Positions 6,686-60,635 of a stretch of 64,000 nt of DNA are shown one piece after another. The notes beneath the pieces were generated by a model that was given only the letters and a program-made list of their open reading frames with translations, had not been told where the DNA came from and did no database searches. A program made the translations under genes and the position numbers. Positions within the stretch are counted from its first letter, which is position 1. The number at the start of each line of letters is the position of its first letter. Origin of the DNA: Lentzea albida (GTDB lineage Bacteria > Actinomycetota > Actinomycetes > Mycobacteriales > Pseudonocardiaceae); assembly GCF_900111005.1 (NCBI RefSeq), contig NZ_FOFV01000005.1, positions 372,001 to 436,000 on the forward strand, given 5' to 3'.

Positions 6686-8014
6686 TCAGTGGCGGGTGAT
6701 CAAATCCCGGAACCACCGCGCGCTCTGCTTGAGCGTCCGCTCCTGGGTCTCGTAGTCGACGTGCACGATGCCGAACCGCTTGCCGTACCCGTAGCCCCAC
6801 TCGAAGTTGTCCATCAACGACCAGGCCAGGTAGCCGCGCACGTCCGCGCCGGCCCGCACCGCGGCGGCCACGGCGGCGATGTGCGACCTCAGGTAGTCCA
6901 CGCGGTCGGCGTCGGCGACGTGGCCGTCCACCACGTCCAGGTCGTCGAAGGCCGCGCCGTTCTCGGTGATCACCATCGGCACGCCGTAGTCCTCGTGCAG
7001 GCGCACCAGCAACGACGTGAAGCCCTCCGGCACGATCTCCCAGCCCATCGCGGTGACCGGGCGGCCCTGCGGCACCACCTCGGACACGTGCGGGTCGTCG
7101 GTCGCCCTGCGCACGTGCGAGGTGTAGTAGTTCACGCCGAACACGTCCAGCGGCGTCGAGATGACCTCCAGGTCGCCCGGACGCACCGGCAGTTCGGCAC
7201 CTCGCGCGGCGACGTCGGCCAGCACGTCCTCCGGATAACGCCCGTGCACCAGCGGATCCAGGTAGATCCGGGTGCCGAACCCGTCGGCGCGGCGGGCCGC
7301 GTCCACGTCACGCGGGTCGTCGGACGCCGCGCTGTGCGTGCCCATGTTCAGCGTGATGCCGAGCGACGCCACGTTGCGCGAACGGAGCTCCTGCGCCGCC
7401 AGCCCGTGTGCGAGCAGGAGGTGGTGCGTGGCACGCATGGACTCGGCGAAGTTCGTGCGGCCCGGCGCGTGCCTGCCGGTGTCGTAGCCGAGCACCGCCG
7501 AGCACCACGGCTCGTTCAGCGTCGTCCACGTCGGCACGCGGTCGCCCAGCGCGTCGTGCACCAGGCCCGCGAACTCGGCGAACCGGTACGCGGTGTCGCG
7601 GTGGGGCCAGCCGCCCGCGTCCTCCAGCTCCTGCGGCAGGTCCCAGTGGTAGAGCGTGAGCCACGGGTCGACGCCCTTGTCCAGCAACTCGTCGACGAGC
7701 CGGGAGTAGAAGTCGACGCCCTTGCGGTTCACCGGGCCGCGGCCGCCGGGCTGGATGCGCGGCCACGACACGGAGAACCGGTACTTGTCGACGCCCAGAC
7801 CGGCGATCAACGCCACGTCGGACGGCATGCGGTGGTAGTGGTCGCAGGCCACGTCGCCGGTCTCGCCGTTCACGACGGCGCCGGGACGGCGGGAGAAGGT
7901 GTCCCAAATGGACAGGGTTCGGCCGTCCTCGTCCCACGCGCCCTCGATCTGGTACGCCGAAGTCGCGACGCCCCAGAAGAAGTCGGCGGGCAGCCCCGCG
8001 GTCACGTCAGACAT
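6686..8014 (-). CDS. GH1 family beta-glucosidase
   Basis: A 442-aa, single-domain, cytoplasmic glycoside hydrolase family 1 enzyme (no signal peptide), of normal family length. The general acid/base Glu is in TLNEP (E168) and the nucleophile Glu in ITENG (E351); FFWGVATSAYQIEG and the YHWDLP segment are also family hallmarks. It cleaves beta-linked glucosides such as cellobiose after uptake. ATG 8014 overlaps the end of the ATPase gene by 8 bp; an in-frame GTG at 8020 is also possible. It is the last gene of the importer operon, and its location explains what the transporter likely brings in. Confidence 0.95.
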   Translation of the reverse strand: MSDVTAGLPADFFWGVATSAYQIEGAWDEDGRTLSIWDTFSRRPGAVVNGETGDVACDHYHRMPSDVALIAGLGVDKYRFSVSWPRIQPGGRGPVNRKGVDFYSRLVDELLDKGVDPWLTLYHWDLPQELEDAGGWPHRDTAYRFAEFAGLVHDALGDRVPTWTTLNEPWCSAVLGYDTGRHAPGRTNFAESMRATHHLLLAHGLAAQELRSRNVASLGITLNMGTHSAASDDPRDVDAARRADGFGTRIYLDPLVHGRYPEDVLADVAARGAELPVRPGDLEVISTPLDVFGVNYYTSHVRRATDDPHVSEVVPQGRPVTAMGWEIVPEGFTSLLVRLHEDYGVPMVITENGAAFDDLDVVDGHVADADRVDYLRSHIAAVAAAVRAGADVRGYLAWSLMDNFEWGYGYGKRFGIVHVDYETQERTLKQSARWFRDLITRH

Positions 8015-8963
8015 GCACACCCTCCAGCCAGCACGCGACGCGCCGGGTCTCCTCGACGTTCTCGAGCGACGGCACCCGCTCGCCGCACACGTCCATCGCC
8101 GACGGGCACCGCGGGTGGAACGGGCAGCCGGACGGCATCGAGCGCAGGTCCGGCGGTGAGCCCGGGATGCCCTTCAGCTCACGGCGGGGACCGCGCAGCG
8201 CCGGGAACGACCCCAGCAACCCCTTGCTGTACGGGTGCTTCGCCGCCCGGTAGATCTCGCCCGCCGGCGCCTCCTCGACCACGCGCCCGCCGTACATGAT
8301 CGCGATGCGGTCGGAGAACTCCACCAGCAGCGAGATGTCGTGGGTGATGAAGATGACCGAGAACCCCAGGGTCTCGCGCAGCCTCATCATCTGGCCGAGG
8401 ATCTGCCGCTGCACCACCACGTCGAGCGCGGTCGTCGGCTCGTCCATGATGACGATCTCGGGTTCCAGCGCGAGCGCCATCGCGATCATCACGCGTTGCC
8501 GCATGCCGCCGGAGAGCTGGTGCGGGTACGCCCCCAGCCGGTCGGCCGGGATGCCCACCAGCCCGAGCAGCTCGCGGGCACGGGCCGTGCGCTCCGGCCG
8601 CTTCATCTGCGGCCGGTGGGTGCGCAGGACGTCGTCGAGCTGCGTGGCGACCGAGATCACCGGGTTCAGGGCGTTCATCGCGCCCTGGAACACGATGGAG
8701 ATCTCGCTCCACCGCAGGACCTGGAGTTCCTTGTCGCTGAGCGACAGCAGGTCCTTGCCCTTGAAGAAAACCTCGCCCGACGGCACGTGTCCCGGCGGTT
8801 GCAGCAGGCGCGTCGCCGCATAGGCCAAAGTGGACTTGCCGCTGCCGCTCTCCCCCGCGAGGCCGAGCACCTCGCCCTTGTTCAGCGTCAGCGAGACGTT
8901 GTGCACGGCGCGGAGCTTGCCGTAGTCGACCGAGAGATCGCGGATCTCCAGCACCGGGCTCAT
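8007..8963 (-). CDS. Dpp/Opp-type ABC importer ATPase (DppD-like)
   Basis: This 318-aa ATPase has Walker [10 protein letters not shown], signature LSGGMRQRV, Walker B IVIMDEPTTALD, and the oligopeptide-type C-terminal extension with a four-Cys-like CPFHPRCPSAMDVC motif typical of Dpp/Opp ATPases. ATG 8963 overlaps the upstream permease stop (ATGA). It is one of two ATPases of a family-5 importer; here the operon ends with a GH1 glucosidase, so the substrate is more likely a beta-oligosaccharide than a peptide. Confidence 0.93.
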   Translation of the reverse strand: MSPVLEIRDLSVDYGKLRAVHNVSLTLNKGEVLGLAGESGSGKSTLAYAATRLLQPPGHVPSGEVFFKGKDLLSLSDKELQVLRWSEISIVFQGAMNALNPVISVATQLDDVLRTHRPQMKRPERTARARELLGLVGIPADRLGAYPHQLSGGMRQRVMIAMALALEPEIVIMDEPTTALDVVVQRQILGQMMRLRETLGFSVIFITHDISLLVEFSDRIAIMYGGRVVEEAPAGEIYRAAKHPYSKGLLGSFPALRGPRRELKGIPGSPPDLRSMPSGCPFHPRCPSAMDVCGERVPSLENVEETRRVACWLEGVHV

Positions 8964-9778
8964 GCGCGCACCTTCCGCAGCCGGGGATTCGCGTACTCGT
9001 CGATCCCGAAGTTGATCAGCGCCAGCGCCGTGCCCAGCAACGCGATGCACAGGCCAGCGGGGACGAACCACCACCACGCGCCCAGGCCGAGCGCCTGGTT
9101 GCTCTGCGCCCAGAACAGGATCGTGCCCCAGTTCCAGGTCGAGAGCGAGATGACGCCGACGAACGACAGCGTGATCTGGAGCATGACCGCGAAGATCACC
9201 GTGCCGACGAAGCCGGACGCGATCACCGCCATCAGGTTCGGCAGCACCTCGAACACGATGATGCGCCAGGTCGACTCACCGGACGCCCGCGCGGCCTCCA
9301 CGAAGTCCCTGCGGCGCAACGACATCGTCTGGGCGCGGAGCACACGGGCTCCCCACGCCCACGCGGTCAGCGAGATCACCGCGGCGATCAGCACGGTGTC
9401 GGCGGACGGCAGCATCGAGGCCACGATGATGATCAGCGGCAACGCCGGGATCACCAGGAACACGTTGGCCAGCATGGACAACGCCTCGTCGGCCGCGCCG
9501 CCGAGGAACCCCGAGGTGACGCCGACGAGGATCGACAGCAGCGTCGCGAGCACACCGCACACCAGCCCGACGACCATCACTCCCCTGGTGCCCACGAGCA
9601 CCTGGGAGAAGATGTCCTGCCCGGTCATGGTCGTGCCGAACCAGTGCGAGCCCGACGGCGGCGACAGCAGGTCGTCGCTCATCGCGGACGGGTCGTACGG
9701 CGCGATCCACGAGCCGATGACCGCGATCAGCGTGAAGAAGGCCAGGATGCCCAGGCCCAGTTTGGTCTTGAAGTTCAC
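8960..9778 (-). CDS. Dpp/Opp-type ABC importer permease (DppC-like)
   Basis: A 272-aa inner-membrane permease with an N-terminal helix (LGILAFFTLIAVIGSWIAPYDP), the usual HWFGTTMTGQDIFSQVLVGTR segment and the BPD_transp_1 domain containing the EAA-like loop (DFVEAARASGESTWRIIVFEVLPN). The GTG start at 9778 lies 2 bp after the preceding permease stop. It pairs with the 9781-10761 product to form the channel. Confidence 0.92.
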   Translation of the reverse strand: MNFKTKLGLGILAFFTLIAVIGSWIAPYDPSAMSDDLLSPPSGSHWFGTTMTGQDIFSQVLVGTRGVMVVGLVCGVLATLLSILVGVTSGFLGGAADEALSMLANVFLVIPALPLIIIVASMLPSADTVLIAAVISLTAWAWGARVLRAQTMSLRRRDFVEAARASGESTWRIIVFEVLPNLMAVIASGFVGTVIFAVMLQITLSFVGVISLSTWNWGTILFWAQSNQALGLGAWWWFVPAGLCIALLGTALALINFGIDEYANPRLRKVRA

Positions 9779-9780
9779 CG

Positions 9781-10761
9781 TCAGCCCTCCCGCCGGGTGC
9801 GCGGGTCCAGCAGCAGGTAGCCGATGTCCGCGAGCAGGTTCGCCACCAGCACCGCCAGTGTGATCACCAGGAACACGCCCTGCATCAACGGGTAGTCCTT
9901 CGCGCCGATGCCCTGGAACAGCACGTAACCGAGGCCCGGGTAGGAGAACACCATCTCGACCAGCAGGGCGCCGCCGACGATGAAGCCCAGCGACAGCGCG
10001 AAACCGGAGATCGACGGCAGCACGGCGTTGCGCGCGGCGTAGGCGAACATGATCCGCTTCTGCGTGAGCCCCTTGGCCCGCGCGACGAGCACGTAGTCCT
10101 CGGCCGTCACGGTCACCATCATGTTGCGCATGCCGAGGATCCAGCCGGCGACCGAGCTGATGACGATCGTGATGCCGGGCAGCACGGCGTGCTCCAGGAC
10201 GCTGCCGATGAACTCGCCGGAGAACTCGGGCACGAGCCCCGGCGCGTAGCCGCCGGACGCCGGGAACAACGGCCAGGTCACGGAGAACAGCGAGATCGCG
10301 ATCAGGCCGAGCCAGAAGTACGGGATCGACGACAGGAACGTCGTCATCGGGATGAGGTTGTCCATCCACGACCCGCGTTTCCAGCCCGCGTACACCCCCA
10401 GCAACGTGCCGAGGACGAACGCGATGACCGTGGTGACGCCGACCAGCCCGAGCGTCCACGGCAGCGACTGGCTGAGCACGTCCGCGACCGGAGTCGGGAA
10501 GAACGTGAAGGACAGCCCGAGGTCGCCTTGGAGCAGCGAGCCCCAGTAGTCGACGTACTGCTGCCAGATCGACTTGTTGTCGTCGAGGCCGAACAGGATG
10601 TAGAGCGACGCCATCGCGTCGCTGTTGAGCCGGCCACCGAGCTTGGTGATCATGGCCTGCACGGGGTCACCGGGGAGCAGGCGCGGCAGCAGGAAGTTGG
10701 CCGTGATCGCCGCCCAGAGGGTGACGAGGTAGAACACGGCACGGCGGAGCAGGAACGTCAT
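9781..10761 (-). CDS. Dpp/Opp-type ABC importer permease (DppB-like)
   Basis: A 326-aa permease beginning with [31 protein letters not shown], the classic DppB N-terminal helix and PGDP motif, followed by the transport domain with the EAA loop ([29 protein letters not shown]). ATG 10761 overlaps the stop of the ATPase gene upstream (ATGA), which rules out the longer start inside it. Confidence 0.93.
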
Positions 10762-11678
10762 GCCGCCGCCTCCACGTACAGCCAGCACGCCGCCCAGTGC
10801 CCGTAGGAGTCGACGTCGGTGCGCGGGGGCGCCTCGGTCCAGCAGCGGGACTGCACCTTCGGGCAGCGCGGCGCGAACTGGCAGCCGGTCGAGACCTGCG
10901 TGACCTCCTCCGGTGGTGCGTCCAGCGCCATCACCGACCGTTCGGGGTCGGGCGCCGACTCGATCAGCAGCTGCGTGTACGGGTGCGCGGGCCGCTGCGT
11001 CACGGTCTCGCTGTCACCGCCCTCGACGATCTGCCCGCCGTACATCACGAACGTCTCGTCCGCGAAGTAGCGCGCCGACGCGATGTCGTGCGTGATGTAG
11101 AGGACGGCGAGCTTGAGCCGTTCCTTGAGGTCCAGCAACAGGTTCAGCACGCCGAGCCGGATCGAGACGTCCAACATGGACACCGGCTCGTCGGCGAGCA
11201 GCACCTCGGGGTGCGCGGCGAGCGCGCGGGCGATCGCGACGCGCTGCCGCTGACCGCCCGAGAGCTCGTGCGGGTACCTGCCGGCGAAGTCCGCGGGCAG
11301 GTTCACCCTCTCGAGCAGTTCCTCCACCGTCTCCGACCGCTTGTGGATCTTGAGCGGCCGGGTCAGGTGGTAGCGGATCGTGTGGACCGGGTTGAGCGAT
11401 GCGAAGGGGTCCTGGAACACCATCTGGACCTTGCGCCGGTACTCCCGGACCCTCCGCACCTTCTCGCCGTCCAGCAGGATCTCGCCGGAGGTGGGTTCCA
11501 CGAGCCGCGCGAGCAGCTTCGCCACCGTCGACTTGCCTGATCCGGATTCGCCGACGAGGGCGGTCACGCGCCCGCGGCGCAGGACGATGGAGACGTCCTG
11601 CACCGCGCGCACGCGCTTGTAGGTCTTGACCAGACCCTTCGCTTCAAGCGCTGCCTCGAAATCAGGCACTGTGTTCAT
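10758..11678 (-). CDS. Dpp/Opp-type ABC importer ATPase (DppF-like)
   Basis: This 306-aa ATPase has Walker [11 protein letters not shown], signature [15 protein letters not shown], Walker [13 protein letters not shown] and the C-terminal [14 protein letters not shown] Cys motif of oligopeptide-type ATPases. It is the second ATPase of the importer, lies 4 bp after the binding-protein gene, and carries the DppF-like [11 protein letters not shown] segment. Confidence 0.93.
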
Positions 11679-54362: not shown

Positions 54363-54932
54363 TCACCGCAGCCCGGCCAGCACGAAGTCGGCGATCTCCT
54401 CCGCCAGCCGGCCAGGGGTCTTCGGCCCGTCCGGCCGGAACCACATCGGCAGCTGGTTCACCACGCCCAGCGCAATCCGCACCACCGTGTCGGCGGGCAC
54501 GACGGAGCTGAACTCGCCGTCGGCCTGCCCCTTCTCGATCACCGCGAGGAACGTCTCGTGGTAGCGCCGCCGTTCGGCGCGGAAGTCGGTCATCCGCTCC
54601 TCGCCGAGCCGGTGCAGCTCGCGGACGAACACCGCAGTCTCGTCGACCCGTTCCGCGGTCGACGAGACGAGCGACGCGAGGATCTCGCGCACCGTCTCGC
54701 CGGCGGGCAGGCCGAGGCCGATGATCCGGTCCATGTCGGCGGACTGGGCCGTGATCAGCAGCCGGTAGATCTCGAAGAGCAGGTCGTCCTTCGAGCGGAA
54801 GTAGTGGTACAGCGCGCCCTTGGTGATCCCGGCGGCGTTGACGATCTCCTGCACCGAGGTCGCGTCGTAGCCCTGCGACGCGAACAGGCGCACGGCCGCG
54901 TCGATGATCTTCTGCTCGGTCGCGCCGGCCAC
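54363..54932 (-). CDS. TetR-family regulator
   Basis: A 189-aa TetR protein: HTH TSVQEIVNAAGITKGALYHYFRSKDDLLFEIY, helical C-terminal domain with LAEEIADFVLAGL end. It follows the LLM oxidoreductase by 2 bp in the same direction, so the two form an operon, and the palindrome TACCGACCGGTCGGTA upstream of that operon is its likely operator. Confidence 0.92.
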   Translation of the reverse strand: MAGATEQKIIDAAVRLFASQGYDATSVQEIVNAAGITKGALYHYFRSKDDLLFEIYRLLITAQSADMDRIIGLGLPAGETVREILASLVSSTAERVDETAVFVRELHRLGEERMTDFRAERRRYHETFLAVIEKGQADGEFSSVVPADTVVRIALGVVNQLPMWFRPDGPKTPGRLAEEIADFVLAGLR

Positions 54933-54934
54933 CG

Positions 54935-55885
54935 CTAGGCCTTCGGTGCCAGTGCGCGCACCTGCTCGACCTGGTCACCGCCGGTCGGGAGGAGCGCGAT
55001 GATCGGCGTGTCGACGCCGTTGGCCTGGTACTCGGCGACCCGTGAGCGGCACTCGTCGATCGACCCGTGCACGACGAGCGCGTCCACGACCGCGTCCGGG
55101 ATCGCCTTCGACGCGGCCTTGCGGTCGCCCGCCGCCCACGCCTCGTGCATCGGGCGCAGCACCTCGCCGCGGCCCAGCCAGTCGTGGAACGCCGCGTACG
55201 CGGGCACGGTCAGGTACGTGCTGATCAGCATGCGGCCCAGCGCCCGCGCGGCGTCGGCGTCCTCGGTCGGGCAGACGAAGATCCGTGCCGCGAGCTCCGC
55301 CTCGCCCAGCTCGGCCCGCACCTGCGCGACGTCGGACGCGGCGAGCCAGTTGGTGATGGCGCCGTCGGCCTCGCGTCCGGCCAGGCGCAGCATGTTCGGG
55401 CGCAGCGCTGCGAGCATGATCGGCACCTTCTCCGCAGGCGGGCGCTCCAGCTTGAAGCCCTTCACCGAGAAAGTGTCGTAGTCGGCGCTGACCTTCTCCC
55501 CCGCCAGCGCGGCCTTCAGGAAGCGCAACGTGTCGCGCGTGCGCTTGAACGGCTCCTCGAACGGGATGGCGTTCCAGCGCTGCACGATCGCGGGCGAGGA
55601 CGAGCCGATGCCCAGCACGAAGCGCCCGCCGGTCACCTCGGCGAGCGTCGCGGCCGTCATCGCCAGCGTGGCGGGCCCGCGCGTGTAGACCGGCGCGATC
55701 GCCGTCCCGAAGCGCAGCTCGTCCGACCACTGCGCGGCCAGGGCCAGCGGCGTGAACGCGTCGGTGCCGGTCGTCTCGGCCGACCACACGTCCGTGTAGC
55801 CGAGCCCGGCGAGCTCGGACACCAGCGCGCGGTGCTCCAGCACCGGCACACCGATCAACGGCAGCGTGATACCCCAACGAGCCAT
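54935..55885 (-). CDS. LLM-class (F420-type) oxidoreductase
   Basis: A 316-aa luciferase-like monooxygenase/oxidoreductase (MARWGITLPLIGVP; GYTDVWSAETTGTDAFTPLALAA; FGTAIAPVYTRGPATLAMTAATLAEVTGGRFVLGIGSSSP). Many actinobacterial members use coenzyme F420 rather than FMN; the cofactor cannot be settled by eye. ATG 55885. Directly upstream of the TetR gene and downstream of an operator. Its substrate may be in the aromatic pathway of the next genes. Confidence 0.88.
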   Translation of the reverse strand: MARWGITLPLIGVPVLEHRALVSELAGLGYTDVWSAETTGTDAFTPLALAAQWSDELRFGTAIAPVYTRGPATLAMTAATLAEVTGGRFVLGIGSSSPAIVQRWNAIPFEEPFKRTRDTLRFLKAALAGEKVSADYDTFSVKGFKLERPPAEKVPIMLAALRPNMLRLAGREADGAITNWLAASDVAQVRAELGEAELAARIFVCPTEDADAARALGRMLISTYLTVPAYAAFHDWLGRGEVLRPMHEAWAAGDRKAASKAIPDAVVDALVVHGSIDECRSRVAEYQANGVDTPIIALLPTGGDQVEQVRALAPKA

Positions 55886-55925
55886 GAACGCCTCCAAGCA
55901 GCTGCTGTGTGCTTGGGCGCCACCC

Positions 55926-55941
55926 TACCGACCGGTCGGTA
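55926..55941. promoter_or_regulatory. TetR operator palindrome
   Basis: TACCGACCGGTCGGTA is a perfect 16-bp palindrome 41 bp before the LLM gene start, at the end of the O-methyltransferase gene. ACCGACCGGTCGGT-type sites are typical for autoregulating TetR repressors. Confidence 0.8.
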
Positions 55942-55952
55942 TGCTCACAACC

Positions 55953-56609
55953 TCACTTCTTGCGGGCCATCGTCAGGCCGTCCGCGATCGGCACCAGCAC
56001 CGACTCCACGCGCGAGTCGGAGCGCACGAACCTGTTGAAGGCGTCGATCGCGGCCGCGTTGCCCTCCGGCTGCTCGTCGGCCGCCTCCCCGTAGTAGAGC
56101 GTGTTGTCGGCGAGCAGCAGCCCGCCCTGCCGGACGCGCGGCACGAGCAGCTCCCAGTAGTGGACGTACCCGACCTTGTCCGCGTCGATGAACACCAGGT
56201 CGACGACCGGCTCCTCCGGCAGCTCGGCCAGCGTCTGCGCCGCGGCGCCGATCCGCAGGTCGATCTTGTCCCGCACGCCGGCCGCGTGCCACGCCTCCTC
56301 GGCGATCGCGGTCCACTCGTCCGAGAGGTCGCAGGTGATGACCTTCCCGGACGCGGGGAGCGCCTGCGCGAACGCCAGCGTGGAGTACCCGGTGTACGTG
56401 CCGACCTCGACCACGGTCTGCGCGCCGGTGAGCTTGACCAGCAGGGACAGCAGCACCGCCTGCTCGTGCGGGATCTGCATCTCCGCCGAGTCGCCGAGCT
56501 CGGCCGTGCGGGCGATGAGCTTCTCCTGCACGGCGCTCGGCTGGCCCGCCTGCTCGCGCACGTAGCGGTAGATCTGCGGGGTCATGACCACGGTCTTGAA
56601 GTCGTTCAC
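55953..56609 (-). CDS. O-methyltransferase, caffeoyl-CoA OMT family
   Basis: A 218-aa SAM-dependent methyltransferase of the CCoAOMT/catechol OMT group. SAM-site motif VVEVGTYTGYSTLAFAQALP; metal-binding region VFIDADKVGYVHYWELLVPRVRQGGLLLADNTLYYG. Family members methylate vicinal diols on catechol-type rings. GTG 56609 follows GAGAAGG. It lies 13 bp from the 56623 gene stop in the same direction, making it the third gene after the ammonia-lyase and the unknown 252-aa protein. Confidence 0.92.
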   Translation of the reverse strand: MNDFKTVVMTPQIYRYVREQAGQPSAVQEKLIARTAELGDSAEMQIPHEQAVLLSLLVKLTGAQTVVEVGTYTGYSTLAFAQALPASGKVITCDLSDEWTAIAEEAWHAAGVRDKIDLRIGAAAQTLAELPEEPVVDLVFIDADKVGYVHYWELLVPRVRQGGLLLADNTLYYGEAADEQPEGNAAAIDAFNRFVRSDSRVESVLVPIADGLTMARKK

Positions 56610-56622
56610 GCGCGGCCTTCTC

Positions 56623-57381
56623 TCATAGGTGGGTGGTGAACGTCCTGAGTGTCTCTCCGCACGCGGGGCTGAGCGGGTGTTTCGCGAGGTCGTGACCGAT
56701 CGCGGACAAGACGGCGGCGCGGTGCGCGTGGTAGCGGCTCACGCACACGTTCTCCCGGCTCACGAGGAAGAACTCGTCGAACCGGGCGCGTTCGGCGTCG
56801 GTGGTCTCCATGCGCGCACGACCGGACTCGCGCAGCAGCGACGGGCCGTCGGGCACGAGTTTGCGCATGACCTCCATGTGTGCCACCAGGTTCGCCTTGC
56901 TCGCGACGGAGAGCGGTTCGGCCGCCACGGGCCCCAGCGCGGCGCGCGCCCGGCGCAGCAGGGCGGGCAGTGGTTCGTAGTCACGTGCCCACCGGCCGCT
57001 GAACGCCGGGTCGAACGCCATCATCATCGGCCGGATGACGTCCTCGTACACCTCGCGGGAACAACTGCCCGAATAGGCGAGCATCACCGAGTACGCGTCG
57101 TATCCAAGCGCAGCGCGGCGGACCAGCTGCGAATCAGGCTCGTGTATCAGCCGATCGAGTGAATCCGCGAGGAACTTCCACACCAGGAACGCGCCGTGGT
57201 GGCCGAGGAACCACCGGTGCACGGCCAGTTCCACCGGGTCGTCCGGGGTGTGGATGGCGAACCGCGTCCGGAAGCAGCCGTCCGCGCACGGGATCAGTTC
57301 CGCACCCGGCATCGGCAGTCGCAGGACGGGCAGGTCGACCCAGGTGTGCCCCCACGCGGGAAGGCAGGCGGGAGCGCTCAT
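56623..57381 (-). CDS. Unknown protein (252 aa), possible heme-type tyrosine hydroxylase
   Basis: A 252-aa cytoplasmic protein with helical character. Notable blocks: VELAVHRWFLGHHGAFLVWKFLADSLDRL, SVMLAYSGSCSREVYEDVIRPMMMAFDPAFSGRWARDY, ENVCVSRYHAHRAAVLSAIGHDLA. From memory these recall heme-dependent aromatic oxygenases that hydroxylate tyrosine (LmbB2/Orf13/SfmD-like), but I cannot confirm it. His-rich helices fit heme binding. Start overlaps the lyase stop (ATGA), and a catechol O-methyltransferase follows, which would fit a ring hydroxylase making a catechol. Confidence 0.45.
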   Translation of the reverse strand: MSAPACLPAWGHTWVDLPVLRLPMPGAELIPCADGCFRTRFAIHTPDDPVELAVHRWFLGHHGAFLVWKFLADSLDRLIHEPDSQLVRRAALGYDAYSVMLAYSGSCSREVYEDVIRPMMMAFDPAFSGRWARDYEPLPALLRRARAALGPVAAEPLSVASKANLVAHMEVMRKLVPDGPSLLRESGRARMETTDAERARFDEFFLVSRENVCVSRYHAHRAAVLSAIGHDLAKHPLSPACGETLRTFTTHL

Positions 57382-58889
57382 CGCCGACCCTCCACTTCGG
57401 ACGCCACGGTGTCGAGCAGGTCCGCGACGCGGGCGAGGGTCGTGTCCAGCGGGCGGTCCTCCACGATCGGCGGCACCTGCTCGGCGATCCGGTCGAACAC
57501 GGCCGCGAGCCGGGGCGCACGCGGCGGGCGCGCGCCGACGTGCACGGCCTGGCGCAACCCGACGGCGAGGGCGGCGTGCAGGTAGCGCAGCAGCTTCGCC
57601 TGGTCGAGCGCGGTGAACGCGGCCTGCGTGCCGAACGGGACGACGTCCTGGTTGTGCAGGTTCGTCGGCAGGCTCTGCACCGACGCGGGCGCGGCGGCCC
57701 TGCGCATCGCGGCGACGGTCGCCGTCGCGCCGATCTGCACACCTTGCAGCGCGTGGTGCTGACCGGGCAGCGGACTGAGCATCGGCGGCAAACCGTTGGT
57801 GCGGTGTGGATCCACCAACAGGTCGAGTTGCCGTTCGGCCAGGTTGCCCAGCTGCACGAGGGCGACGTTGAGCTGGTCGGCAGCGAAAGCGCTGGGCTGG
57901 CCGAAGAAGTTGCCGCCGTGCACGACCTCACCGGTCTCGGGGAAGAACAGCGGGTTGTCGCTCACGCCGTTGAGGTCGCGGCGCACCACCTCGTCCGCGT
58001 GCCGCACGCTCGTGCCGGCCGCGCCGATCAGCTGTGGCGTGCAACGGATGCTGTAGGGCTCCTGCAGCGGGCGCTCGCCGGAAGGCCTGCTCCCCTCGAG
58101 CCATGACCTGATGGACGCACCCGTTTCAGCGACGTCCGGATGCCCGAACGCGGCCAGTAGTCCAACCGACGTGAACTCGGTGCCGCAGCCGAGGACGTCG
58201 GTCAGCAACGCGGACAGCAACTCCGCGGTGCTCCGCGCGCGAACCGCCTGCGCCACAGCGAGTCCGAGTGCTGCGGCGGTCACCGAAATGCCGTTGACCA
58301 ACGCGAGCGCGTCGCGACCGTCCAACACGAGTCGCGTTAGGCCGGATCGTGCAAGCGCTTCCCCGGCGGTCGTCAGCCGTCCTTGGAAGAAGGCGTTCCC
58401 GTTACCGCGCAACGCATGTGCCACGTACGCGAGCGGTTGGAGATCACCACTCGCACCGACTGACCCCAAACGTGGTACCGCTGGGGCGAAATCGGTGTCC
58501 AGCATGGCAGTCAGCGACGCCACGACCTGCTCGGACACTCCGGATCGCCCCTGTGACAACGAGAAGAGCCGCGCGAGGACGGCGGCTCTGGCGATGGCGG
58601 GCGGCAGCAGTTCACCGTGGCCGACGATGTGGTGCAGGATCGTGTTGTCGCTCTGAGCGGCGCCGTCGGCACGGCCCTCGAACTCAACGAGCGGGCCGAA
58701 ACCCGTTGTGACACCGTAGATGGCGCGACCGGACGCGCTGATCTCGAGCACGAACTCGCGGCAGCGCCGCACGCGGTCGAGCACGTCCTGCGGGAACTCG
58801 ACGCGGATCCGGTCGCGGGCGAGCTCGAGCTGTGCCGGTTCGAGGTGTGCGGCCAGGTTCAGGGCAGCAGGGGATGTTCCGACAGGCAT
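57378..58889 (-). CDS. MIO-type aromatic amino acid ammonia-lyase/aminomutase
   Basis: A 503-aa enzyme of the HAL/PAL/TAL family. The MIO cofactor arises from A146-S147-G148 (GSVGASGDLQPLAY), and the catalytic Tyr58 is in IYGVTTGFGPL. At the substrate-selectivity site it has His-His (H86-H87 in ILHHIVGHG); HAL enzymes carry S-H, tyrosine lyases H-L, phenylalanine lyases F-L, so Tyr or a relative is likelier than His. Ammonia-lyase (coumarate/caffeate) and 2,3-aminomutase (beta-tyrosine) activity cannot be told apart. AGGAGG precedes ATG 58889. Confidence 0.88.
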   Translation of the reverse strand: MPVGTSPAALNLAAHLEPAQLELARDRIRVEFPQDVLDRVRRCREFVLEISASGRAIYGVTTGFGPLVEFEGRADGAAQSDNTILHHIVGHGELLPPAIARAAVLARLFSLSQGRSGVSEQVVASLTAMLDTDFAPAVPRLGSVGASGDLQPLAYVAHALRGNGNAFFQGRLTTAGEALARSGLTRLVLDGRDALALVNGISVTAAALGLAVAQAVRARSTAELLSALLTDVLGCGTEFTSVGLLAAFGHPDVAETGASIRSWLEGSRPSGERPLQEPYSIRCTPQLIGAAGTSVRHADEVVRRDLNGVSDNPLFFPETGEVVHGGNFFGQPSAFAADQLNVALVQLGNLAERQLDLLVDPHRTNGLPPMLSPLPGQHHALQGVQIGATATVAAMRRAAAPASVQSLPTNLHNQDVVPFGTQAAFTALDQAKLLRYLHAALAVGLRQAVHVGARPPRAPRLAAVFDRIAEQVPPIVEDRPLDTTLARVADLLDTVASEVEGRR

Positions 58890-58956
58890 GACGCCTCCTG
58901 TGGATTGGGGGCCACTCGCGACGATCCCCGGTGAGCTGCCAGGGAGGAAGGGCCTT

Positions 58957-59100
58957 ATGTACGCACTAAACGAGGAAAATTTCTCAGCTGCGAAGCGGCT
59001 CGCTCAAGCCGCCGGAGAGGTGATCGAACTCTCCGCGCACGATTCGCCCCAAAAGATCGCCGCACTGCTCCACCGGGGTGAACACGGCTCGCGGCGCTGA
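58957..59100 (+). CDS. Small hypothetical protein (47 aa)
   Basis: ATG 58957 after AGGGAGGAAG encodes a 47-aa helical peptide (LNEENFSAAKRLAQAAGEVIELSAHDSPQKIAALLHRG). It is divergent from the lyase gene with only 67 bp between the two starts. No family recognised; good ribosome site, fair chance of being real. Confidence 0.45.
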   Translation: MYALNEENFSAAKRLAQAAGEVIELSAHDSPQKIAALLHRGEHGSRR

Positions 59101-59185
59101 GACCTCGCCCACACCGAGGTCCGCCGATGTCCTTGCACGCCAAGGATTACGCCGAACGCCCACGCGGCGCCGGTGATCGAAGAGC

Positions 59186-60635
59186 TCACTTCTGGGTGTC
59201 CTTCAGCAGGCGGCGGAGGACCTTGCCGGACACGGACTTCGGAATCTCATGCACGAAGACAACTTGGCGCACCTTCTTGTACGGCGCCACCTCCGCCGCC
59301 ACGAAGGCCATCAGTTCCTCCGCCGTCACATCGCCTTGCGTCACCACGAACGCTTTCGGGATCTCCCCGTTAACTCGATCGGCCGCACCGATCACCGCGG
59401 CGTCCCGGACGGCGGGGTGGCGGCGCAGCACGGCCTCCAGTTCGGCCGGCGCCACCTGGTAGCCCCTTGTACTTGATCATCTCTTTGATCCGGTCCACGA
59501 CGTGGAACCGGCCGTTGTGGACGCGCACGAGGTCGCCGGTGCGCAACCAGCCGTCCACGAAGGCCTCTCGCGTGGCCTCGTCGTCACCCAGATAGCCGTC
59601 CATCACCTGGGGACCGCGCACGAGCATCTCGCCCTGCGCCGCGTCCGTCGTGGTGCCCGGCTCGACGACGCGCGCCTCCGTTCCGGGACAGAGCACCCCG
59701 ACGCTCGTGGGGTCGGATTCCACGTCGTCGTCGAATGTCTGGTGCGTGCCACCGGCTTCGGTGAGCCCGTAGCCCTGCCGCACGGGCGCCCCGAGCCTGC
59801 GTTCGGCTTCCTGCCGCACGGCGTCGTCGAGCGGTGCGGCACCGCAGAGGACGAGCTTGAGCCGGAGTTCCGGCACCGGGCCTTCGTGGTCCGCGATGGC
59901 GGCGGCGAGTGGCGGCACCAGGAACGCGCGCGTGATCTTGTGCTCCGCCAACCGGTTCAGGTAGGTGCCCGCGTCGCTCCTCGGCATGGTCACGAGGGTG
60001 GCGCCGCCGAGCAGGCCGGAGTTGAGGATGATCGTGAAGCCGTAGACGTGGAAGAACGGCAGGTTCGCGGCGAGCACGTCGGTCTCGTCGATGCGCCAGC
60101 CGGGCCTGTGCTGCTCCAGGTTCGCGACGAGCGCGCGGTGGCTCAGCCGCACGGCCTTCGTCAGACCCGTTGTGCCGCTGGAGAAGAGGACGACCGCGGT
60201 GCTCCGCGGGTTTCCCGGCGGGAGCGAATCGCCGTCGCCCGCGGGGAGGTCGTCGAGATCGAGCGTCGCGGTGACGTTCGCGAGTTCCTCGAGCCGCGCG
60301 ATCTCCGGCGGCGTGAGCATCGGGTTGATCAGCGCGGCCGTCGCGCCCGCGGCCATGACCGCGTGCAGGCCGACGGCGAACGCGGGCCGGTTGAGGCTCG
60401 CGATCGCGACCGTGTCACCGGGCCTGATCCCGTTGCGCACCAGGCCTTCCGCCGTGGTCTGGACCTGCCGGGCCAGCTCGGCGTACGTGAGCGACTCCCC
60501 CGTGACGGCGTCCACGAGGGCGACCTTGTCGTTGTGCCGTGCGCGTTCCAGAACGTGTTCGGGCACCGTGCGTTCGGGAACCGCCACCGCCGGCAGGGGG
60601 CTGCGGTAGATCACAGGCTCGGCTCCGGTCTCCAC
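59186..60635 (-). pseudogene. 4-coumarate-CoA ligase-like gene with frameshift
   Basis: An acyl/aryl-CoA ligase (ANL superfamily) read in two frames. Bases 60635-59467 encode the N-terminal part with FSSGTTGLTKAVRLSH (P-loop), GYGLTEAGGTHQ and GWLRTGDLV, up to KEMIKYKG. The 3' part (59455-59186) continues in another frame with APAELEAVLRRHPAVRDAAVIG and the active Lys (PKSVSGKVLRRLLKD). One extra G in a GGGG run (C run at 59463-59466) causes it; removing it restores KGYQVAPAE and about 482 residues, normal for the family. It is either a real knock-out or a sequencing error. Confidence 0.85.

Follow-up and report, generated by a model that had tools for sequence, protein, structure and literature searches.

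Can a small group of genes in the soil genus Lentzea carry tyrosine to a plant-type phenolic acid, and which of the genes that stand together on the DNA belong to that group? The question arises from a window of 64,000 nucleotides of Lentzea albida (bases 372001-436000 of contig 19, in a genome of 9.44 Mb), where the minus strand carries a coenzyme A (CoA) ligase, an ammonia-lyase of the 4-methylideneimidazol-5-one (MIO) type, a protein of 252 residues, an O-methyltransferase (OMT), an oxidoreductase of the luciferase-like monooxygenase (LLM) class and a TetR regulator. The reading that we favour, at a probability of roughly 0.64, is that of a partly eroded five-function cassette of phenylpropanoid type leading from tyrosine to a methoxycinnamic acid, the functions being a CoA ligase, a short-chain dehydrogenase/reductase (SDR), the MIO ammonia-lyase, a heme-dependent tyrosine hydroxylase and a class I OMT. 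The heme hydroxylase would convert L-tyrosine into L-3,4-dihydroxyphenylalanine (L-DOPA), the lyase would turn DOPA into caffeate and the OMT would methylate caffeate to ferulate or isoferulate; in intact copies of the cassette the ligase could then convert the acid into its CoA ester and the SDR contribute a redox step, the product being used elsewhere. The window and Lentzea have kept the core of lyase, hydroxylase and OMT. The parts of the cassette lie in the window as follows:

59370-60635, minus strand: N-terminal fragment of an aryl/acyl-CoA ligase resembling 4-coumarate:CoA ligase (4CL), with about 391 homologous residues and then out of frame (PF00501, 5.1e-72)
59186-59455, minus strand: C-terminal domain of the ligase, in another frame (PF13193, 1.5e-21)
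58984-59082 (end approximate), minus strand: C-terminal remnant of an SDR gene, about 32 residues, 75% identical to residues 210-241 of the SDR at the related locus L033
57378-58889, minus strand: MIO-type aromatic amino acid ammonia-lyase, similar to tyrosine ammonia-lyase (TAL), with His86, ASG at 146-148 and NQD at 413-415 (PF00221, 1.2e-128)
56623-57381, minus strand: homologue of heme-dependent tyrosine 3-hydroxylases, 252 residues, recognised by its PDB matches, R56-W57-x3-H61 and H168
55953-56609, minus strand: class I O-methyltransferase of catechol/caffeoyl-CoA type (PF01596, 2.2e-53; PDB 5lhm, 1.8e-49)

A search of named genomes with the hydroxylase gave 20 related loci, 19 from Lentzea and one from Nocardia sp. 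NRRL S-836, which we call Lentzea-type; since the hydroxylase itself served as the query, its presence in them is by selection, and the unbiased count is that over the genus, where hydroxylase and lyase occur together in 23 of 24 genomes (own genome included). In 22 of the 23 other genomes with this genus code the hydroxylase is 78-88% identical to that of the window and the lyase 80-93%, with only residues 1-447 of the lyase aligning in one of them (G002). Lyase, OMT, LLM oxidoreductase and TetR are all present in 20/20 related loci. Median ratios of non-synonymous to synonymous substitution (dN/dS) against the window are 0.19 for the lyase, 0.36 for the hydroxylase and 0.19 for the OMT (n=20 each), next to 0.10 for the LLM gene, 0.22 for tetR and 0.20 for malQ: hydroxylase and lyase are under purifying selection.

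The association also extends beyond Lentzea. Profile searches, each of which counted the own genome, detected these hydroxylases in 64 genomes among 390 of the taxonomic family (at E-values up to 1e-30) and in 10 among 394 sampled from the class (up to 1e-10); the sampling leans to one family. We probed 69 stretches of 10-20 kb, and after leaving out eight selected for their lyase only (L089-L096) and three without a hydroxylase match (L068, L087, L088) there remain 58 loci, namely all 52 places from the family search outside the Lentzea group and six from the class search (L077, a match at a contig end, was left out of the long stretches). Within 6 kb of the hydroxylase, 28 of the 58 hold LmbB1, 23 hold both lyase and OMT, five hold an OMT only, two hold none of these and no locus combines LmbB1 with the lyase. 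The chance of finding such a lyase near a hydroxylase is about 0.5% per locus (a crude estimate from four such lyases per 9.4 Mb), so that 23 of 58 is more than chance. LmbB1, probed for in the 58 other loci, is thus found in 0/23 lyase-linked ones; in the window and the 20 Lentzea-type loci the hydroxylase has lyase and OMT as neighbours. In a quick tree with SH-aLRT branch support only, a branch with support 100 sets the 28 LmbB1-linked hydroxylases apart. The 23 cassette loci carry nine codes at the level of the genus and two at that of the family; a ligase match is present in 21 of them, that of L102 reaching no more than 31%, and a single alignment spans a fusion of ligase and SDR in 13. 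Lyase, hydroxylase and OMT show correlated pairwise distances (r = 0.88, 0.86 and 0.83; n=24), with 0/2000 permutations as high in each case, and shared species history may contribute to this.

Eleven of the 23 lyase-linked loci also show a ketosynthase-like match in stretches of up to 20 kb, one of them (L057) with a clear module of ketosynthase, acyltransferase, ketoreductase and carrier protein; five of the eleven reach only 31-35% identity and are perhaps not modular polyketide synthases (PKS). No such match was found in the 28 LmbB1-linked loci, in the 20 Lentzea-type loci or in the 64-kb window. The acyl supply for a natural product that the initial annotation had proposed would fit the paralogous cassettes better than the eroded copy in the window, because ketosynthase-like matches stand beside the former and beside none of the window and Lentzea-type loci.

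Several of these stretches deserve a description of their own. The genome under study has a second cassette on contig 17 (L054, G000:C17:263001-283000), with ligase, lyase, OMT and, on the opposite strand, the heme hydroxylase; no SDR match was found in this stretch, and a gene with an acyltransferase domain lies nearby. L053 (G000:C15) and L062 (G011:C26) hold hydroxylase, OMT and a ligase-SDR fusion and show no lyase match within their 20 kb; the genome may carry a partner lyase at another place. In L056 (G001:C3) a thiamine-diphosphate enzyme at 7797-9440 follows the cassette ligase, hinting at a further carbon-carbon step. The hydroxylase homologue of L065 (G087:C12, 9282-10211) is accompanied by neither lyase, LmbB1 nor OMT and that of L063 (G051:C7) by an OMT only, possibly a third context of the family.

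What, then, is the 252-residue protein? It has no match in Pfam or NCBIfam. Compared with the PDB as a single sequence it finds the heme-dependent L-tyrosine hydroxylases 7kqr (which we take to be SsTyrH; E=3.5e-23) and 8r2s (1.8e-22) and the 3-methyl-L-tyrosine peroxygenase 6vdp (E=0.005), and a profile of 26 rows, window included, reaches 2.6e-69, 1.3e-68 and 1.9e-8 with the same three entries. Both hallmarks of the family, the distal RW-x3-H motif and a conserved downstream His, are present and invariant as R56-W57-x3-H61 and H168, the latter being the presumptive heme ligand. The available part of PMC3851162 describes LmbB2 as binding heme b, converting tyrosine into DOPA and carrying an R90-W91-x3-H95 motif, and assigns heme tyrosine hydroxylases to the lincomycin, hormaomycin and pyrrolobenzodiazepine clusters; the window motif is equivalent to that of LmbB2 and thus supports family membership. 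The initial annotation had made its pathway conditional on this protein, coupled to the lyase, hydroxylating the ring, and at the level of the family the homology bears this out: the protein belongs to a ring-hydroxylating family that takes tyrosine to DOPA. Seventeen positions, among them R56, W57, H61, Y103, Y112, R117, D134, H168 and R209, are identical in 27/27 lyase-linked and 28/28 LmbB1-linked hydroxylases, and their constancy across both groups favours a shared amino-acid substrate. No match to the hydroxylase was found among the plasmids of PLSDB.

The lyase belongs to the MIO superfamily by its PF00221 match and its Ala-Ser-Gly triad. Its His86 aligns with the position that differs between the PDB sequences 2o6y and 2o78, which we take to be RsTAL of Rhodobacter sphaeroides and its H89F mutant; position 89 of RsTAL presumably sets the preference for tyrosine. 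His occupies this position in 21/21 Lentzea-type copies and in 31/31 other lyase copies read, and the NQD triad (12/12 copies compared) is that of the PDB entries for TAL and tyrosine aminomutase, with EDH at this place in 7tqr. The selectivity residues are thus of TAL type and not of the type of histidine ammonia-lyase (HAL). By NCBIfam, the top scores are those of two HutH models (358 and 352 bits against cut-offs of 524 and 539, the second pair being TIGR01225); scores were also obtained with the tyrosine 2,3-aminomutase model TIGR03832 (285 against 501) and the curated TAL equivalogs FlxA (273 against 700) and BagA/FevW (246 against 1000); since the cut-offs for HutH, aminomutase and TAL equivalogs are all missed, the lyase forms a separate subfamily. 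It therefore resembles TAL (2o6y) and the tyrosine aminomutase 2qve, presumably a Streptomyces enzyme, in superfamily, ASG and NQD, and TAL in the selectivity His, but stands apart from both in its subfamily. The coupling to the hydroxylase gene by ATGA that the initial annotation had noticed is confirmed (57381 against 57378), and lyase stop and hydroxylase start overlap in 21/21 copies, by four bases in 12 and by one base in nine.

Lyases of the same subfamily also occur elsewhere. At L091 (G000:C29:156001-176000) one at 57% identity (9386-10882) lies without a heme hydroxylase match and adjoins apparent flavin monooxygenases and an AMP ligase (named by eye), which could represent this pathway in a flavin-based form. 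Copies of similar length at 56-59% identity are found in at least 15 other genomes of the genus among the matches listed.

For the third member of the core, the PF01596 domain and the DADK and DN motifs at 142 and 168, presumably the metal site, point to a class I OMT; its best PDB match is to the bacterial class I enzyme represented by 5lhm and 5log, which we take to be SafC of the saframycin cluster. Lyase, hydroxylase and OMT, usually with a ligase, form a recurrent cassette, which supports, at the level of homology, the earlier proposal that tyrosine or DOPA could be turned into an acid of caffeate or ferulate type.

The activation genes have a different history. The aryl-CoA ligase that had been annotated is present and begins at 60635, but 59370 is not its end. 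Its C-terminal AMP-binding domain runs on to 59186 in a different frame, so that the gene as recorded carries a frameshift, be it through a real mutation or a sequencing error, and lacks the single open frame of a functional 4CL-type enzyme. The PDB matches of the fragment are led by the acyl-CoA synthetase 7kyd, with 4CL (3a9u, 5bsm) second; in L056 it is the 4CL entries that come first. The window ligase thus departs from 4CL in being frameshifted, and 13 of the 23 other cassettes depart from it in aligning as ligase-SDR. The gene set had to be redrawn also between ligase and lyase, where the initial annotation had missed a gene: this 0.3-kb gap aligns with the end of an SDR gene (alignment of the window with 19 of the 20 loci). 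The L033 SDR matches PF00106, and the ligase and SDR genes of that locus overlap by four bases. Of the 20 related loci, 13 hold a full-length SDR between ligase and lyase, six have a partial remnant as in the window, and in L048 none was detected; comparison with the SDR parts of ten cassette loci gave identities of 36-51% for the Lentzea SDR. The ligase is one open frame of 475-489 residues in 14/20 and absent or decayed in 6/20; both genes are intact in ten loci, only the ligase in four, only the SDR in three and neither in three. With ligase or SDR missing or decayed in 10/20 loci and lyase and OMT present in 20/20, the activation genes have been lost repeatedly and the core stays. The supply of an activated acyl group at this locus, as had been proposed, is accordingly not supported, the ligase being frameshifted and the SDR reduced to a remnant. 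The methoxycinnamic acid would be expected either to stay free or to be activated by a ligase encoded at another locus, such as the second copy on contig 17.

A number of observations weigh against the favoured reading. G023, a genome of this genus, lacks the hydroxylase and, among the matches listed, this lyase as well. The dN/dS of the hydroxylase (0.36) exceeds that of malQ (0.20), and the ligase fragment is also constrained where present (0.24, n=14), so that the ligase is not simply dying everywhere. Window positions 62, 100, 133, 184 and 236 differ consistently between lyase-linked and LmbB1-linked hydroxylases and the latter are separated by a long branch (1.36), so that the substrate may differ from that of the LmbB1-linked enzymes; the window protein is also shorter than the chain of 7kqr (252 against 316 residues), and we found no characterised enzyme in the lyase-linked branch. 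The lyase-linked hydroxylases, which lie outside the LmbB1 branch, do not resolve as one clade in the tree (six label changes), and some loci depart from the full set: five hydroxylase loci have an OMT and no lyase, and two of the 23 cassettes (L083, L105) lack a ligase match. As for the lyase, its best single PDB match is 7tqr (1.5e-68), named as a probable histidine ammonia-lyase, and it scores under the NCBIfam cut-off of all eight models matched.

Among the alternatives, the one that survives best, unlikely as we consider it, reverses the first two steps: the lyase would act first, from tyrosine to 4-coumarate, and the heme enzyme would be a 4-coumarate 3-hydroxylase, as in the order of Sam8 and Sam5. 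The His at the RsTAL position 89 would suit tyrosine, the lyase gene precedes that of the hydroxylase, eight loci picked for holding a lyase of this subfamily and no hydroxylase match in their stretch indicate that the lyase need not receive DOPA, and the five group-specific positions would fit a changed substrate of the hydroxylase. A plant enzyme of this activity presumably holds heme. According to the available part of PMC6491607 a plant 4-coumarate 3-hydroxylase is an ascorbate peroxidase, which gives this order an analogy. Against it stand the 17 positions unchanged between the two hydroxylase groups, with the amino-acid substrate that they favour for both.

Less probable still is that the MIO enzyme is an aminomutase and that the product is a β-amino acid such as 3-methoxy-β-tyrosine. 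In the PDB comparison the tyrosine aminomutases 2qve and 2rjr (7.7e-68) do rank slightly above the TAL entry 2o6y (5.6e-66), and some paralogous cassettes adjoin PKS genes; but the cut-off of the aminomutase model TIGR03832 is missed, as given above, the TAL entry outranks the aminomutases for the paralogue L055, and the one cassette ligase tested is closest to 4CL, which fits a cinnamate better.

A very improbable third explanation is the full set of the initial annotation, in which a single pathway would unite LLM oxidoreductase, TetR and ligase with the lyase, the hydroxylase and the OMT and deliver an acyl-CoA for a product made at this locus. The neighbouring features that it concerns, together with a short open reading frame (ORF) within the cassette, are these:

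55927-55940: palindromic operator ACCGACCGGTCGGT (14 bp, predicted) of the LLM-TetR unit, taken as the cassette boundary
54935-55882, minus strand: LLM-class oxidoreductase of F420-dependent type (TIGR03841, 320.5 bits; cut-off 213.65), a neighbour outside the cassette
54363-54932, minus strand: TetR regulator, assigned to the LLM unit, a neighbour outside the cassette
58957-59100, plus strand: ORF of 47 residues on the strand opposite the SDR remnant, considered an artefact

The genes are collinear, LLM and TetR follow the OMT in 20/20 related loci, and an LLM match at 63% lies near the paralogous cassette L059; the LLM gene with its TetR and operator stands as the initial annotation had it. 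However, the LLM-TetR unit has its own operator: the palindrome is matched once in the 64 kb at up to one mismatch (shuffled sequences gave a mean of 0.07 and at least one match in 7 of 100) and is invariant in 17/17 aligned loci (window and 16 of the 20). An LLM enzyme at 59-83% identity also occurs in 20 of 30 genomes chosen for lacking the hydroxylase; within 1.5 kb of these 20 genes a TetR gene still adjoins in five and a similar palindrome in six, and neither lyase, hydroxylase nor OMT was found in that distance. L059 is the only one of the 23 other cassette loci with an LLM match, and the ligase is, as described, frameshifted here and absent or decayed in 6/20. LLM and TetR thus look, from their distribution, like a separate unit and not like members of the pathway; taken as a whole, the observation in the initial annotation is partly confirmed and its interpretation partly supported. 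A catabolic histidine ammonia-lyase locus is the least probable of all: although HutH models give the top NCBIfam scores and a probable histidine ammonia-lyase the best PDB match, those scores lie far under their cut-offs, NQD replaces EDH and is accompanied by His86, the gene overlaps that of a tyrosine-hydroxylase homologue, and a lyase acting on histidine only is unlikely because a separate HutH above the TIGR01225 cut-off (664 bits) sits on contig 39 of the same genome.

The 47-residue ORF was rejected as a functional gene on account of its antisense position, a median dN/dS of 1.19 (n=12) and the lack of a Pfam match. Ahead of the lyase start (window 58890-58985), about 55 nucleotides are near-invariant in the window and 19 loci and are perhaps a promoter or regulator site. 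Across the genome this leader motif occurs once exactly and four times at one mismatch, the reversed control giving one. Folding of this leader was no better than that of shuffles in any of the four sequences folded (z of 0.08 to 0.78), and a scan for promoters and terminators did not exceed shuffles (0 and 2 found against 0.1 and 2.5 expected). The region has a G+C content of 68-71%, the remainder of the window spanning 65-73%; the window is Lentzea-type chromosome.

How does the cassette compare with known systems? The saccharomicin caffeate genes of Saccharothrix espanaensis, encoding Sam8 and Sam5, likewise come from an actinobacterium of the Pseudonocardiaceae, to which we take Lentzea to belong. 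The Sam hydroxylase, presumably of flavin type, hydroxylates 4-coumarate at position 3 once the lyase has acted, whereas the window encodes a homologue of heme tyrosine hydroxylases and the cassette includes an OMT and an SDR. These genes, treated in PMC3469384 and PMC4557066, form the nearest described route. LmbB2 and SsTyrH, of the lincomycin, anthramycin, hormaomycin and related systems, share sequence family and motif with the window hydroxylase; LmbB2 is coupled with the extradiol dioxygenase LmbB1, in contrast to the lyase-linked branch, which over the 58 loci has MIO lyase and OMT and no LmbB1. The cassette is real and conserved, and its combination of known kinds of enzyme is new as far as our searches reach: in the portions of the open-licence literature available, no paper joins this hydroxylase family to an ammonia-lyase, which is weak evidence of novelty, and a search there for Lentzea with caffeic acid gave nothing beyond a general review.

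A second set of these hydroxylases occurs together with ammonia-lyases, methyltransferases and CoA ligases, in some cases beside polyketide synthases, which predicts a plant-like caffeate/ferulate route in actinobacteria that would use a heme hydroxylase. This would give a genomic handle for polyketides built on acids of caffeate or ferulate type, and the small hydroxylases may be of use in producing caffeic and ferulic acid. We tentatively extend this to a large part of the heme tyrosine hydroxylase family, amounting in the genomes sampled to nearly as many loci as the LmbB1-linked ones: it may serve a bacterial phenylpropanoid pathway with ligase and SDR, in which the linked lyase would genuinely be a DOPA ammonia-lyase and the OMT a catechol OMT, and Lentzea, keeping the three-gene core and repeatedly losing CoA activation, may have free methoxycinnamic acid as its selected product. 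For Lentzea itself, an unusual iron-heme enzyme, of a kind familiar from a few antibiotic pathways, probably allows a small and near-universal gene set to make a ferulic-acid-like, plant-type phenol from tyrosine.

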